In this document: one piece after another, positions 20,105 to 27,745 of the stretch
Layout: each line of letters begins with the position of its first letter
Position numbering within the stretch: position 1 is the stretch's first letter
Source of the DNA: Candidatus Aphodovivens avistercoris
Lineage (GTDB): Bacteria; Actinomycetota; Coriobacteriia; Coriobacteriales; Eggerthellaceae
Reading direction: 5' to 3'
Assembly (NCBI GenBank): GCA_018710945.1
Contig: DVIW01000004.1
Span: 124,001-188,000 of the forward strand
DNA: 64,000 nt
Position numbers and translations under genes: made by a program
Notes under the pieces: generated by a model
What the model was told of the DNA's origin: nothing
The model's input: the letters and a program-made list of their open reading frames with translations, nothing else
The model's database searches: none

Positions 20105-20749
20105 CTATTCCTCTTCGCCCTCAACCAAAACCGCAACAAGCGCCGCCGCAAGCGCGCACGTCAGGGCGTAGAAGTCCTCATCCGTGGCAGCCAGGCACTC
20201 CGCCGCCTTCGGAATCCAACGACGAGCATGCTGGTCGGCGAACTGGGCCGCAAGCCGCGCCCAGTGGGACGCCTGGTCCTCGTCGCCCTCGTCCCAGCAC
20301 TCGGCCTCGCGCTTCTTGCAGAACGCCAGAAACGCCAGCTCGGAGGCAAAGGAGTCGGAATGCAGGCTCTTCACCGCCAACTTGTAGCCGGAAAGGGCCT
20401 GATAGTCGAACCCCACGGTGCGGTAGCACAGAAGCACGTGGTCGGTCAGATCGCTCTGCGTCGAGGCGTAGCGCATCACGCCGTCGGCGTCCTTGCCGCC
20501 GCGCGCGATGCTGCTCTCGACAAGCGGCACGTAGCAGGGCGTGGACGTGACGAACAGGCGGTCGTAATAGCGCTGCTTGAGCGCTTCGTCCACCGCAACG
20601 TCGAAGCCGCCCTGCCCCAGCGCTCGGGCGACCTTGCGCACATCGCCGACGATTTCTTCCGTAGGCTCGTCAAGGAACGCCTCGGCGCAGGCGTCGAACG
20701 CCACGCAGAAGCCGCGCGCCTCGGTAGCCTTTTCGGCAAAATCCGTCAT
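20105..20749 (-). CDS. TorD/DmsD-like chaperone for the molybdoenzyme
   Basis: A 214-residue, all-helical cytoplasmic protein resembling the TorD/DmsD family. These chaperones bind the Tat leader of a molybdoenzyme and hold it until cofactor insertion is complete. The start is ATG 20749 behind AAAGGAGG. It is the last gene of the minus-strand reductase cluster and is separated from the membrane subunit by 368 bp that contain a tandem repeat. The expected client is the Sec-containing enzyme at 22628-25726. Confidence 0.8.
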   Translation of the reverse strand: MTDFAEKATEARGFCVAFDACAEAFLDEPTEEIVGDVRKVARALGQGGFDVAVDEALKQRYYDRLFVTSTPCYVPLVESSIARGGKDADGVMRYASTQSDLTDHVLLCYRTVGFDYQALSGYKLAVKSLHSDSFASELAFLAFCKKREAECWDEGDEDQASHWARLAAQFADQHARRWIPKAAECLAATDEDFYALTCALAAALVAVLVEGEEE

Positions 20750-21117: not shown

Positions 21118-21981
21118 TTACGCCACAGCCACCGCCACGGCGGCCATGATGACCAGGTAACGCAGCATGAAGCCGCCCACCAGGACGCACGCCTCGCCCG
21201 CAATGGGCAGCGCCTTGCCCTTCGCCGAGCCGCGATGGGCCAGAAGCTCGATCGCGAACGGCGCGGCCAGGCCGATGACGACCAGGCCCAGCCAGAAGGC
21301 CACGGCATACGGGCCGCTCACCAGGTTGGCGACCGAAGCCGCGCCCGCAGCGGCAGCCGATCCGCCCGCCATGCCGGCAACCGCCAGCAACACGACCACC
21401 AGCACCAGCTCAAGCACCGGCAGCACCAGGCCGGACTTGCCCAGCCACGGCAGCGCGGCAACCTCGTCGGCGGCTGCCAGGCGCGTGATCAGCACCGTGG
21501 CGGCAATGCCGGTGGAGGCGGCGGAGACGATGAACAGAATCGGCAGCACCGCCATGTTCCACAGCGGGAAGGCCATGCCGGCGTCGCCCAGCAGCACGCC
21601 GGTGTAGGCGGCCACGCACACGGCCAGCACCGCGCCGATGATGTCGAGCGCCTTGGGCGAGCTCTTCTTCACCAGCAGGACCACCAGGTCGATGACGCTG
21701 ACCACCAAGAACAGCGACAGGATGATGACGCCCCAGGCCATGACGGAGTTCAAGTTCGCCACCAGGCCGAAGAAGCGCAGCGGGTTCATCAGGCCCGCAT
21801 GGGCGTCCACCACCAGCATCAGCGTGCCCACCGCCACGGCGACGGGCGCCACGATGAAGGCGATCTTCTTCATCGTGGGAGCGGGGGCCTTGGCCCAGTT
21901 GGTCAGCGCGCCCACGACGAACGCGCCCGCGCCCAAACCGGCCAGGAACAGGTAGATCGCGATGATCGCATCCCACACCAT
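21118..21981 (-). CDS. NrfD/PsrC-type membrane subunit of the reductase
   Basis: A 287-residue polytopic protein with about eight to nine helices. Its N-terminus, IAIYLFLAGLGAGAFVVGAL, is typical of the NrfD/PsrC/TtrC family, which oxidises menaquinol and passes electrons to the Fe-S subunit. It starts 1 nt past the Fe-S subunit stop, so the two are coupled. Together with the two upstream genes it makes a three-part CISM-type complex. Confidence 0.88.
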   Translation of the reverse strand: MVWDAIIAIYLFLAGLGAGAFVVGALTNWAKAPAPTMKKIAFIVAPVAVAVGTLMLVVDAHAGLMNPLRFFGLVANLNSVMAWGVIILSLFLVVSVIDLVVLLVKKSSPKALDIIGAVLAVCVAAYTGVLLGDAGMAFPLWNMAVLPILFIVSAASTGIAATVLITRLAAADEVAALPWLGKSGLVLPVLELVLVVVLLAVAGMAGGSAAAAGAASVANLVSGPYAVAFWLGLVVIGLAAPFAIELLAHRGSAKGKALPIAGEACVLVGGFMLRYLVIMAAVAVAVA

Positions 21982-21982
21982 G

Positions 21983-22612
21983 CTAGTTCACCCCCTCGTA
22001 CGGCTTGACGACGTTGCCACCGCGGTGCACGGCGGAAGCCACCGGCATCGCATCCACCTCGGACAGGCCGATGTAGGTCAGCTGCGGGTTCAGGCCCAGG
22101 TCGGCGTACAGCGCCTCGCTGCCGCCCGCCTCCTGGATGCGCTTGGAGATGTCGCTTTCGGGATCGTTCAGATCGCCGAAGATGCGCGCCTTCGTGACGC
22201 AGGTGGACACGCAGGCGGGCAGCAAGCCCTCGCTGGAGCGGTGATGGCAGAAGGTGCACTTCTCCACCTCGCCACTCTCCAGCTGGTAGCGCGCCTGGTA
22301 GGGGCACGCCGCCATACAGTACTTGCAGCCGATGCACTTCTCAAGGTCAACCTGCACGGTGCCGTCCTCGGCCTTGTAGCTGGCGCCCGTCGGACACACC
22401 TTCACGCAGGGCGCGTCCTCGCAGTGGTTGCACTGCTTGGGCACGTTCGCGCGGGCGATGCGGCCGTCGGGGCGCTCCACGTCGAAGCTCTCGATCCAGG
22501 TGTTGAACTTGTCGGCAGGCACGCCGTTCTCGTACTTGCACGCCACCACGCAGGCGTTGCAGCCGATGCAGAGGGCAAGGTCGATCAGCATGCCAAGCTT
22601 TTTCTCGCTCAT
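21983..22612 (-). CDS. Four-cluster ferredoxin subunit of the reductase
   Basis: A 209-residue electron-transfer subunit. Four cysteine groups are visible: CIGCNACVVAC, CNHCEDAPCVKVC, CIGCKYCMAAC, and CTFC followed later by CVSTC. This is the 4x[4Fe-4S] pattern of DmsB/PsrB/TtrB. There is no Tat leader of its own; it would be carried out with the catalytic subunit. The gene follows the catalytic gene by 15 nt. Confidence 0.92.
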   Translation of the reverse strand: MSEKKLGMLIDLALCIGCNACVVACKYENGVPADKFNTWIESFDVERPDGRIARANVPKQCNHCEDAPCVKVCPTGASYKAEDGTVQVDLEKCIGCKYCMAACPYQARYQLESGEVEKCTFCHHRSSEGLLPACVSTCVTKARIFGDLNDPESDISKRIQEAGGSEALYADLGLNPQLTYIGLSEVDAMPVASAVHRGGNVVKPYEGVN

Positions 22613-22627
22613 GTTCGCTTACCCTCC

Positions 22628-25600
22628 TTACGCCTTCTCGATCTTCCACATGCCGCCCACGCGTCCCGGCGATGCGGCCTCGTTCTCGGAGTAGATGCTC
22701 AAAACGCCGTCCTTGCTGACCACGGGATCGAGCATCTGATGCGTGCGCACGCCCGCGGCGATGGCCGGGTTGCCCTTCGTCAACTCGCCGTCGATCTCGA
22801 TGTCCTGGGCGCCGTAGTTGATGTGCTCGTAACCGAAGGCGATGGCGAACGCGCCCTTCGCCTGACCGGCACGCACCATGGCCTCGCCCTCGGAGACGTC
22901 GCCCATCGGGGTGATGCAGCGGACGCGGTCGCCGTCCTTGATGCCCAGCTCGGCCGCATCCTCGCGGTTCATCTCGATGTAGTTGTGATCGCAGATGCCG
23001 CGCATGATGGGGCTGTTGGACAGCATGGAAATGGAGCGGAAGCGAGGCTTGTGCTCCGAGTTGAGGAACGGGTACTCCTCGCGGGAGAACATGTCCTCGG
23101 TGTAGGACATGTCGGCCAGGCGCTCGCGCGTGTAGTGGAGCACCGGCCAGGTGCCCTCGCCGGAGTAGCAGTTCTTGTACGTCGCGCGCTTCTCGGAGTA
23201 GATGAAGGTCTGGTGGTCCTTCTCGTAGCCGAGGCAGTGGATGCCGTCGTCCTCGCGCACGTACTCGATGGGCCAGTAGCGGCCGCCGCGCGAAAGCACG
23301 TTGAGAACCTTGGGCCACTCTTCCTCGGTGACCGTGGCCTTCATGTCCTCGGGCAGCTCGTCGAGACCCTGCAGGTGCGCTTCCTCGTCGGAGATGTCGG
23401 CGACGGGATCGTTGGCGTAGGCCAGGTTGGCCACGGCCTTCAGGTAGAAGTCGCCCGCGTCATGCAGCGGCCAGGAAGAGCCGTCGGTGCCCTTGATGGC
23501 GTCCTCGCCGAAGCCGGGCATGCCGATGGACTCGGCCACGTCGCACAGGAAGGCCTCCCAGCTGGCGTAGCGGCCGTCGTCCAGCTGCACGCTCTCGGGA
23601 GTCTTGACGGGCCAGCGCACCGTGGTGCCGTAACCGACCCACGTGGTGCCCGGGGTGGGCAGGCCGTAGCTCTCGTAGGGGGTCACGTCCGGCACGATGT
23701 AGTCGGCGTACTGCGCGTGCTCACCCACGAACACGTCGCACGCGATGTGCAGCGGCAGGATCTCGGGGTCGCACAGACGCTCGATGACCTCGTCGCGCAT
23801 GGCGCCCGGGGTGGCCTGGATGGTGTTCACCATCCACGAGGTGAGGATCTTGCACTGGTAGGGGTACTGGTTCACGATGGACATGAGCGCCTGGCTGTCC
23901 GAAGAGGAGCCCAGCGGGAACCAGGGCATCTTCGGCTTCGGGTCGGTTTCGCCCGCAGCCACGCGGTTCTTGTACTCGTCGGTCTTGTCCCACGCCTTGC
24001 TCGTGCGCGAGATGGCCTGCGCGGTGATCTTCGGCTTGCCGGCCACGGTGGCCAGGTCGTAGCGCACGCCCTTGCCCGCCGTGGTGGGGCTGGGGCTGTT
24101 GGGAGCGTTGCCGCCGATCATCTGGTTGGTGCCCATCATCATGTGCAGCATGTTGGCGCCCACCATGCAGTCGACGCCGTGCACCGATGCGCACTCGCCG
24201 CCCTTGTGGCACACGCTGACCTTCTGGCCATGGGAGGTGAACTCCTTGGCGATGCGCTCGATGTCCTCAACGGACACGCCCGTGATCTCGGAGTACTCCT
24301 CGATGGTGTACTCGTTGACGGACTCGGTGAGGATGGCGAAGCCGGTACGCACCTTCACGCCGTTCACTTCGCCCTCGAAGTCGAGCACGCCCTTGGAGCA
24401 GTTGTCCGTGATGGCGGGCTGGTTCGTCTCGGCGTCGATGCACACGAACTGGTCGACGGGCTTGCCGTCCTTGTCCAGCTTCTCAGGCGCGTCGATGCCC
24501 GCGTCGGCGGGGCGCATGAGCTTCTTGTAGTTCGGGTGGTTCTCGTCGTCGATGACGAGGAACGTGCCGTTGCAGAACGCGCCGTAGCCGGCGGCGACAG
24601 CGGCCTTCTGGTTGGTGAAAGACATCGCCTCGGCGTCGAAGGTCTGGTCGGCGATCATCTTCTGGATGAGGGCCGCGCAGAACGCCGAGTTGGTGGCCGG
24701 CTTGATGGGGATCCAGTTGATCCCGGGCAGCGTGGGGGTCACGCAGCCGTTGGCCAGCGACGGATCCAGAACGTCGATCTTGAGCTTGCCCGCAGCCAGG
24801 TTGGCGGCGGTGCGCTTGCCGGAGCTCTGGTAGTTGATCATGCTACCGCCGGGGAAAGCGCCCAGCCAGATAGCGTATTCGGCCTCTTCAGGGTCGGGGG
24901 AGAGGCCAGTACCCGAGGTTGCCAGCGAACTCGCTGAGTTGGCAACCGCTCAACTGGAGGCGTGTCCGTACGCGTTGACGGAGCCGAAGCTGCCGGCAAA
25001 GCGGCTGGAGAAGTTGCCACGGCCGTCGGAACGGCTGCCCAGCATCACCAGCTGATTGGACACGGGGCCCAAAGAGGGCTCGTCGGGGTTCATCGGGGTT
25101 TCGGTGTCGTACAGAGCGCGGAAACCGGTGATCTCGCGATCCTCGCCGATCTCCTCGAACAGCTTGCCGCCCTCGACCACCTCGTTGATCAGCTGGTCCC
25201 AGCTGATGGGCTTCCACTTGCCCTCGCCGCGCGCACCCGCGCGCTTGAGCGGCGTGGTGATGCGGTCGGGCTGGGTGTAGCCGTCCAAGGTGCCGTTGCC
25301 GCGGCCGCACACGCTGCCGCGCAGCAGGTTGCCCTTGCCGTTCGCGTAGCTCATGGACTGGTACGCCTCGGTGAGAGGCGCCTCGAAGTCCAGATAGGGG
25401 TACGCGCACGCCGGGTTGTAGGGGTTTCCGCCCACGCTCAGGACGCGTCCCGTCTCGCGATCCATCTTCACGCGGTTGCCGCAGGAGCTGTAGCAGCCCA
25501 CGCAGCCGGAATAGCGAACGATGACGTCCTCGTTGACGGTAACGTCTCCGGTTTGAGGATCCACCTTCGCCTCGATGGGCTGGCCATGCTTCGGCGCGGG

Positions 25601-25726
25601 GAATTCCGCATCCGCAGCCAAAGCGCGGTTCATCTGACCGCTCAGGCCGACGCCGGCAACCGACAGCGCGCCGACGGCCGCAGCGGCCTTGACGAACGTG
25701 CGTCGATTGATGTTCATCGATTCCAT
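22628..25726 (-). CDS. Tat-exported TtrA-like molybdopterin oxidoreductase with selenocysteine (UGA 259)
   Basis: Catalytic subunit of a DMSO-reductase-superfamily enzyme, read through an in-frame TGA at 24950-24952 (1032 residues). The ATG at 25726 follows GGAGGAGGG. Tat leader: NRRTFVK (residues 7-13). A [4Fe-4S] motif is at C75, C78, C82 and C140. Residues 165-258 resemble tetrathionate reductase TtrA as I remember it (GEGKWKPISWDQLINEVVEG, then FGSVNAYGHASS). The TGA sits exactly where TtrA has its Mo-ligand cysteine. The frame continues with AVANSASSLATSGTG and a full C-terminal half. A SECIS-like hairpin starts 2 nt after the TGA. The likely substrate is an oxidised sulfur or selenium compound. 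A nonsense pseudogene is the alternative. Confidence 0.85.
24917..24947 (-). promoter_or_regulatory. Candidate bacterial SECIS hairpin
   Basis: On the minus strand, 2 nt after the TGA: GGTTGC pairs with GCAACC. Inside a 5-nt one-sided bulge (CAACT) comes CAGCG/CGCTG with an AGTT apical loop, about 19-22 nt past the UGA. The bulge and a G-U in the loop are what SelB recognition needs in the known bacterial examples. Confidence 0.65.
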
Positions 25727-26001: not shown

Positions 26002-26143
26002 GGAGCAAGCTTAAATTTTCAGTGGAAAGCTAGGTTTTCAAGGACGCGCGACGGGCTGCCGGGATCGGGCCAGCCGGCGACGCGCCATGACGGGAGGCCG
26101 GCTACGAGGAGAAGCCGCCTATCCGGTGAGAGGGGGCCCAGCA

Positions 26144-27745
26144 TTGGGCGAGATCGTCGTGCGCGTGAAAGCGTTCGGGTCGGACAACGCAGGCCTGGCG
26201 TTCTTCTTGGCGTGGAGCTACATGACCGTGTTCACCTCCAGCGTCTACACCGGCGAGGGGGATCCGTTCGGCATCGAGCGGCTGTGGGCCGCCAGCGCCG
26301 CAGTGCAGATCGCCGTGGCCCTTGTCGGGCTTGCGCTGGCGCGCACGGGCAAGCTCAGGCCAAGCCGCGTGTTCGGCGTCATCGCCGTTGCCGCCGCCGT
26401 CATCGGCAACGTTGCCCTGTGGCTGAGCTTCAAAAGCCCCCAGCTGTACTGGGCGCTGCTGCCCGTCGGCGGCGTCTCCATCGGCATCAGCATGACGCTT
26501 TTCAGCGTGATATGGGGCGCGCGACTGGCGCGCTGCACCTTCTCCCAGATAGAGTTCGACGTGCTGGGCAGCTTCGCCATCGCGTTCGCGCTGTACTGCG
26601 TCACGCTGCCCATGAAGCTCTACGGCATCCCCCAGCTCATCATCGCCACCATCCTGCCCATCGTGTCGGCCTGGCTGGCCTACCGGCGCAGCCCCGCCGC
26701 AGAACCGTTCGCCGACCAGCAAGCCGCGCAGGCGCTTGGACGGTCCCAGCTGCGCGACGAGCTGCGCGGCACCGGATCGACGCTCGCGATGGTGGCGGCG
26801 CTGTGGGTCATCGCGGCGTTTCTGCGCGTGATCTACACGCCCTACGGTGCCGCCGACACGTTCATGCACTACTTCGCGCCGTTCTTCCTGGCCTGCATCG
26901 CATCGGTGGTGCTGTTCGGAGCGTTGGTGTGGCTGGCGCGGCACGTGAACGTGACGCTGGCGTTCCGCTGGGCCATCCCGTTCTTTCTGGCGTCGCTGGC
27001 CGCCGTGAGCTTCAACCCGTTCGGAGTGGAAGCCTATTCAGCCGCCTACACCCTCAACTACCTGGGAATGTTCGGCGTGCAGGTGAGCCTGTGGATGGCC
27101 ATGGCGAAGTTCAGCCACAACAAGCCCGGCGCGGCGGCGCGGGTGTTTCTGGGATATGCAGCCGCCAGCGGGCTGGGCATCGTCATCGGGTGCGTGCTGG
27201 GACTGGTGGCCTGGGAGCAGTTCTCCGGCACGCAGCGGCTTGCCGCGGCGCTGGCGGTGCTGTCGGCGTGCGCGTTCCTGGCGCTGCTGTTGGGATTCAG
27301 CCCCCACTGGCGCACGCCCGCCCCCGTGCGGCGCGTGATGCGGTCCGCGGCAGCCGGCGTGCGGGCGCAGGAGCTCAGCGAGGCGGGGGGCGGTGTGGAG
27401 CGCGTCGAAGCGTCCGGGGCAGCGAAGGGCGGCGCAGGCGCAGCGGAGTCTGCGGATGCGGCGGGGTCCGGGAAAGCGACGGGGCAGGCGCTTCCCCACA
27501 TCTCCGACGAGGACATGATCGCGCTGCTGATGCGCAACAAGGCGCGGGCGCTGCAGCAAGAGTTCGGCCTAACCGCGCGCGAGACGGAAGTCGCCGAGCT
27601 GCTGCTGACGGGACGCAGCCGCCCCTACATCCGCGACACGCTGATGATCTCGCTGAACACCGTGCACACCCATGCCAGCAACATCTTCTCCAAGTGCGGC
27701 GTGCATTCCCAGCAGGAGCTCATCGACCTGGCACGCGGCAACTGA
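26144..27745 (+). CDS. Membrane-bound LuxR-family regulator (12 TM + HTH)
   Basis: A transcription regulator anchored by about twelve membrane helices, then an Ala/Gly linker, then a C-terminal LuxR helix-turn-helix (GLTARETEVAELLLTGRSRP, then SLNTVHTHASNIFSKC). This architecture is frequent in Eggerthellaceae beside respiratory-type oxidoreductases and is thought to sense the substrate. I chose TTG 26144 because GAGGGGG lies 7 nt upstream. An ATG at 26087 in the same frame has no ribosome site. It is divergent from the selenoprotein operon, so that operon is the likely target. It ends 15 nt from a convergent MFS gene. Confidence 0.88.
   Translation: MGEIVVRVKAFGSDNAGLAFFLAWSYMTVFTSSVYTGEGDPFGIERLWAASAAVQIAVALVGLALARTGKLRPSRVFGVIAVAAAVIGNVALWLSFKSPQLYWALLPVGGVSIGISMTLFSVIWGARLARCTFSQIEFDVLGSFAIAFALYCVTLPMKLYGIPQLIIATILPIVSAWLAYRRSPAAEPFADQQAAQALGRSQLRDELRGTGSTLAMVAALWVIAAFLRVIYTPYGAADTFMHYFAPFFLACIASVVLFGALVWLARHVNVTLAFRWAIPFFLASLAAVSFNPFGVEAYSAAYTLNYLGMFGVQVSLWMAMAKFSHNKPGAAARVFLGYAAASGLGIVIGCVLGLVAWEQFSGTQRLAAALAVLSACAFLALLLGFSPHWRTPAPVRRVMRSAAAGVRAQELSEAGGGVERVEASGAAKGGAGAAESADAAGSGKATGQALPHISDEDMIALLMRNKARALQQEFGLTARETEVAELLLTGRSRPYIRDTLMISLNTVHTHASNIFSKCGVHSQQELIDLARGN

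Follow-up and report, generated by a model that had tools for sequence, protein, structure and literature searches.

A predicted selenocysteine insertion element following the in-frame TGA of a ttrA-like gene in Candidatus Aphodovivens avistercoris

In-frame TGA codons in bacterial genes may terminate translation or specify selenocysteine (Sec), and the choice between these readings is the question raised by a gene encoded on the minus strand of the window, i.e., the whole 64,000-nucleotide stretch of the Candidatus Aphodovivens avistercoris genome that was analyzed. The open reading frame extends from an ATG at 25726 to a TAA at 22628 and contains one internal TGA, at 24952-24950, that is followed by a hairpin. 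We conclude that the hairpin at 24937-24922 is very probably a bacterial SECIS located within the coding sequence and directing Sec to the UGA of a TtrA-like enzyme, at the position of the molybdenum or tungsten ligand. The features referred to below are as follows.

22628-25726, minus strand: ttrA-like gene, catalytic subunit of a Tat-signal molybdopterin oxidoreductase, 1,032 amino acids through one TGA
24950-24952, minus strand: in-frame TGA, predicted selenocysteine codon (residue 259) at the Mo-ligand position; the other homologues have TGC or TGT (Cys) here
24922-24937, minus strand: predicted SECIS apical hairpin, 6-bp stem and 4-nt loop; 24937-24932 pairs with 24927-24922, and the outermost pair is U-G
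24928-24931, minus strand: apical loop AGUU; G23 is 24930 and U24 is 24929, invariant in 17 distinct homologues
24917-24947, minus strand: outer bounds of the lower stem and bulge as first proposed; 24947-24942 with 24922-24917
21983-22612, minus strand: ttrB-like four-cluster ferredoxin subunit; TtrB is the nearest likeness
21118-21981, minus strand: membrane anchor subunit of the NrfD/PsrC type
20105-20749, minus strand: cytoplasmic chaperone of the NarJ/TorD type, with a Nitrate_red_del match
26087-27745, plus strand: membrane LuxR-type regulator, divergent, upstream of the ttrA-like gene

The ttrA-like gene and the alternation of TGA with cysteine

Read through the TGA, the protein, of about 110 kDa, carries a Tat signal and a Cys-rich Fe-S motif, and it matches PF00384 and PF01568 (molybdopterin oxidoreductase and dinucleotide-binding domains) above their cut-offs. 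The top curated model was TtrA (equivalog NF011567), with a score of 583.9 bits, far under the curated cut-off of 1,750 bits; therefore, the protein is named TtrA-like rather than TtrA. No formate dehydrogenase model scored above its cut-off in the curated-model search. The AlphaFold model of the read-through protein has a mean pLDDT of 78 and is locally uncertain at residues 256-258; in a Foldseek search with this model, the PDB matches listed belonged to the DMSO reductase family only, with a probability of 1.00. Judged by its domains and modeled fold, the TtrA-like protein is a member of the DMSO reductase (MopB) family. The genes for the ferredoxin, the NrfD-type subunit and the NarJ/TorD-type chaperone lie directly downstream, and comparison of gene neighborhoods, based on the N-terminal half of the ttrA-like gene and the neighboring genes, showed a matching layout beside most Eggerthellaceae homologues. 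Diverged relatives of the LuxR-type regulator occupy the equivalent place beside many of the homologous operons.

The frame of the ttrA-like gene is open across the TGA, with 84% protein identity to a Rubneribacter orthologue that carries the TGA as well. In total, at least 27 distinct homologues have retained TGA at the equivalent codon, all other well-aligned homologues have TGC or TGT, and the alternation is restricted to this single codon. A tree of 76 distinct full-length relatives (27 TGA, 49 Cys) places all 27 TGA forms inside one well-supported clade of 44 rows, with at least seven state changes in all. The TGA form was found in Coriobacteriia (Eggerthellaceae and a few others), in the Bacillota Tissierella, Sedimentibacter and Fuchsiella, and in Desulfuromusa and one Geobacter MAG (Desulfuromonadia-type). 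In alignments, the codon falls on the Cys of ArrA (6cz7) and on that of the Thermus polysulfide reductase PsrA (2vpw), residues that we take to be Mo ligands. The gene shows both features looked for in a selenoprotein gene, namely, an in-frame TGA aligned with a Cys that is conserved in homologues, and a genome that encodes SelA, SelB, SelD and tRNA-Sec.

The tRNA-Sec of the source genome has the anticodon TCA, the SelB gene is present, and SelA is represented by two halves at two contig ends. Both SelD itself and an FdhA-type gene contain an in-frame TGA at the known Sec position and, therefore, UGA recoding is in normal use in this genome. Across genomes, the TGA form is accompanied by SelB in 13 of 14 genomes of the same family and in all six TGA-form genomes outside Actinomycetota, and SelB is absent from three of the six genomes that yielded Cys forms alone. 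The one TGA-bearing family genome with no SelB match (G394) is 82% complete and has two TGA-type genes; assembly gaps probably account for the missing gene. It should be noted that the FdhA-type gene (locus L128, contig C26:72174-73451), a second Mo selenoprotein in the source genome, has the hairpin GTCGCC-GGTCT-GGCGAC in the fdhF register. SelD (locus L125, contig C33:2226-3176) has its TGA in the context KGG-U-AAKWG, and the register of its downstream hairpin is unlike those of the FdhA and TtrA-like hairpins.

Some genomes carry two copies of the gene. In Gordonibacter pamelaeae, two TtrA-like genes of the TGA type are separated by about 7 kb; in Eggerthella sinensis, about 12 kb of a single contig separate a copy of the TGA type from one of the Cys type (loci L047 and L050/L048 are among these). 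The copies in these species form natural Sec/Cys paralogue pairs. The E. sinensis paralogue (L099:5769, also L031) has TGC at the Sec codon and retains the SECIS-type hairpin TGCAGCG-AGTT-CGCTGTG, with a 7-bp stem, the AGTT loop and an identical run of 12 bases, AGCGAGTTCGCT; its sister, the Cys homologue of Berryella, has lost the hairpin. From these sequences, the TGC paralogue with its hairpin is an apparent fossil of a recent Sec-to-Cys change. This is a single case, and the hairpin may instead be held there by the constraint on the encoded peptide ASSL.

The apical hairpin

The sequence-only reading had described a GGTTGC segment (24947-24942) that starts two nucleotides after the TGA and can pair with GCAACC (24922-24917), a one-sided 5-nt bulge, and a CAGCG/CGCTG stem with an AGTT loop, and all of these are present; the bulged stretch is CAACT. 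Numbering from the U of UGA as 1, the apical stem comprises positions 16-21/26-31 and the loop positions 22-25; CAGCG (24936-24932) pairs with CGCTG (24927-24923), and the loop starts 18 nt after the TGA.

The hairpin was compared to the published bSECIS model, which specifies a loop of 3-9 nt, an upper stem of 4-16 bp, a G at the first or second loop position, in most cases with G or U after it, a spacing of 16-37 nt between UGA and loop, and a minimum free energy of -7.5 kcal/mol or lower (PMC13188914). The 4-nt loop and the 6-bp stem lie inside these limits, as does the 18-nt spacing; the loop AGUU has a G within its first two positions, followed by U, and the energy is -7.6 kcal/mol for the 24-nt hairpin region and -16.2 kcal/mol for 45 nt. 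The Rfam scan of the window returned a tRNA alone and, therefore, no curated family model recognizes the hairpin.

Conservation of the apical stem was assessed in 17 distinct TGA sequences from Actinomycetota, nearly all of them Eggerthellaceae. In this stem, 93.1% of the cells are paired, and double, compensatory changes occur in five of the six pairs. The stem scores 0.510 for covariation, compared to a shuffled mean of 0.186, with none of 500 shuffles reaching the observed value, and registers slid along the alignment score 0.161 at most. For example, pair 17-30 underwent at least four separate changes when traced along the protein tree, and each of the 17 sequences has a standard pair there. 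Unconstrained RNAalifold predicted exactly the apical stem.

When the longest stem was sought freely, alternative pairings were chosen in some sequences and, therefore, fixed-register tests were used, one of which counted as a hairpin any stem of 5 bp or more around a loop that has G at position 23. By this definition, the hairpin is present in 17/17 Actinomycetota TGA sequences (synonymous shuffles predict 1.15 over all 23 TGA sequences) and in two of the 25 Cys homologues, for which 0.90 is predicted. The six distant TGA homologues, from other phyla, have a covarying stem of their own in a slightly shifted register, with a 3-nt loop at columns 24-26 and the G-U not in all of them; judging from these loops, the SelB contacts may differ between phyla. 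The single-codon alternation of TGA and Cys, the Sec machinery, the covariation and the invariant G23-U24 all support the earlier proposal of a SECIS-like hairpin serving Sec insertion at this TGA.

The lower stem and alternative explanations

The lower part of the structure behaves differently from the apical stem in the comparisons between homologues. The lower stem (positions 6-11/31-36) competes with the apical stem for base 31. Pairing is seen in only 34% of its cells, no more than the mean of the shuffles, and is matched by 450 of 500 shuffles; hence, of the two stems for which compensatory changes had been sought, the apical one exceeds all shuffles and slid controls, and the lower one fails. 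The same division holds for the other proposed check, orthologues that keep the TGA without the stem: all 17 Actinomycetota sequences retain the apical stem, whereas the nearest orthologues lose the lower one. A conserved lower stem, alone or combined with the upper stem, was therefore rejected as a candidate, being particular to the source sequence. Neither a conserved bulged U nor a conserved paired lower stem, which together characterize an SECIS of the fdhF type, was found. The lower stem and bulge are present yet unconserved and, on this comparative evidence, probably not functional. Of the two features likened to fdhF at the outset, the bulge is not conserved, and the loop G-U lies in the fdhF register.

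The expectation that the element would fold better than shuffled controls was not borne out. The fold energy of the 46-nt segment has z = -0.92, with 35 of 200 dinucleotide shuffles folding as well, and with synonymous-codon shuffles as the control, z averages 0.03 across 23 TGA homologues. The free energy of the whole fold is uninformative for both the TGA and the Cys forms. For a hairpin of just 6 bp within GC-rich coding DNA, energy is too weak a criterion and the wrong yardstick, and it gives no sign that the element is absent.

These results bear on the alternatives to the preferred reading. The proposal that the full two-stem structure is functional, with the lower stem and the 5-nt bulge providing a contact like that of U17 in fdhF, draws on the joint folding of both stems in the source sequence, in which the lower stem is perfect. 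However, the Rubneribacter orthologue keeps the TGA without the lower stem, the pairing of this stem is no better than that of most shuffles, and U17 is bulged in fdhF, whereas here columns 17 and 30 covary and form a pair in each of the 17 sequences; we consider this proposal highly unlikely. Even less credible is that the stem is conserved merely as a by-product of the protein sequence. In one sub-group, a common peptide, ASSL, is encoded by the very codons that make the hairpin, but the encoded residues vary between groups while pairing is preserved via double changes, synonymous shuffles seldom recreate the hairpin, and most Cys homologues are without it.

The remaining two explanations dispense with Sec altogether. 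A standard-code annotation would end the protein at the TGA, and the unremarkable folding energy is compatible with a hairpin that arose by chance in a pseudogene or in a gene expressed in two pieces. An ordinary stop codon is, however, hard to reconcile with a TGA common to at least 27 homologues from three phyla and strongly conserved on both flanks, with Cys as the sole alternative residue and with a covarying stem, and we assign this explanation a negligible probability. Stem-loops located 3' of stop codons can raise readthrough in general, so that a near-cognate tRNA might decode the UGA without SelB, the hairpin being a mere stimulator. Against this stand the invariable use of Cys as the alternative residue at a metal-ligand position, the Sec machinery that accompanies the TGA form, and the loop bases in a SelB-type register; SelB-free readthrough is thus an exceedingly improbable account of the locus.

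Predicted function and comparison with known systems

In bacterial Sec insertion, SelB with GTP and selenocysteyl-tRNA(Sec) sits on a stem-loop and delivers the tRNA once the ribosome reaches the UGA. Under the preferred reading, a SECIS at 24937-24922, this complex would bind the apical stem-loop, with G23-U24 as the recognized bases, and would deliver Sec instead of allowing termination. In the resulting full-length TtrA-like subunit, selenium would replace the Cys sulfur as the amino-acid ligand of the Mo (or W) bis-pyranopterin cofactor. The catalytic subunit would be folded with the TorD-type chaperone, exported by the Tat pathway and joined with the TtrB-like ferredoxin and the NrfD-type quinol anchor into a respiratory reductase. 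SelB binding, Sec insertion, Mo coordination and the quinol-to-acceptor reaction are all steps that we infer. Tetrathionate, selenate and arsenate are substrates of relatives (PMC7331816), and the substrate of this reductase is perhaps an oxyanion of sulfur, selenium or arsenic.

More broadly, the TGA forms likely represent a lineage of Sec-liganded respiratory Mo reductases that is distinct from formate and formylmethanofuran dehydrogenases and has undergone several Sec/Cys exchanges, the E. sinensis paralogue being one. This proposed lineage comprises, among gut Eggerthellaceae, the window species, Gordonibacter, Rubneribacter, Adlercreutzia/Enterorhabdus and Eggerthella and, elsewhere, Tissierella, Sedimentibacter, Fuchsiella, Desulfuromusa and Geobacter relatives. 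Ordinary annotation splits such genes or calls them pseudogenes; therefore, a group of respiratory enzymes from bacteria associated with the human gut may be wrongly annotated in numerous genomes. If the reading is true, dietary selenium is tied to the respiratory capacity of gut bacteria through a TtrA/SrdA-type clade, and the natural Sec/Cys pairs of one enzyme would make the value of selenium measurable.

Sec as a Mo ligand is established in formate and formylmethanofuran dehydrogenases. Of the 119 prokaryotic selenoprotein families inventoried in 2026, those given as Mo/W-cofactor enzymes are FdhA and FwdB, and no TtrA-like enzyme is listed (PMC13188914). Searches of the open literature found no published Sec-containing TtrA-like enzyme. 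The TtrA-like protein shares with Sec-containing FdhA and FwdB the DMSO reductase fold and Sec at the Mo/W ligand position (predicted here), but these have the motif UHxP, whereas the TtrA-like protein has HASSU, belongs to another clade and has TtrB/NrfD partners. With the TtrA/SrdA clade, it shares TtrA as the best curated model and an operon with TtrB-like and NrfD-type subunits; the difference is in the ligand, which is Cys for this clade in the published tables of two phylogenetic surveys (PMC7331816, PMC10100899), compared to TGA, predicted Sec, here.

At the level of RNA, the hairpin resembles the SECIS of E. coli fdhF (the comparison sequence was found in 5,368 genomes) in its location within the coding sequence just 3' of the UGA, in a loop at 22-25 with G23 and U24, and in a closing stem directly around the loop; the FdhA loop of the source genome also has G23-U24. 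It differs from fdhF, which has a bulged U17 and the loop GGUC, in the paired column 17 and the loop AGUU. Compared to the bSECIS consensus, the hairpin falls wholly within the model, although its energy, taken for the hairpin alone, is barely under the limit. As a SECIS, the hairpin would be unexceptional, and the apparent novelty lies in the host protein.
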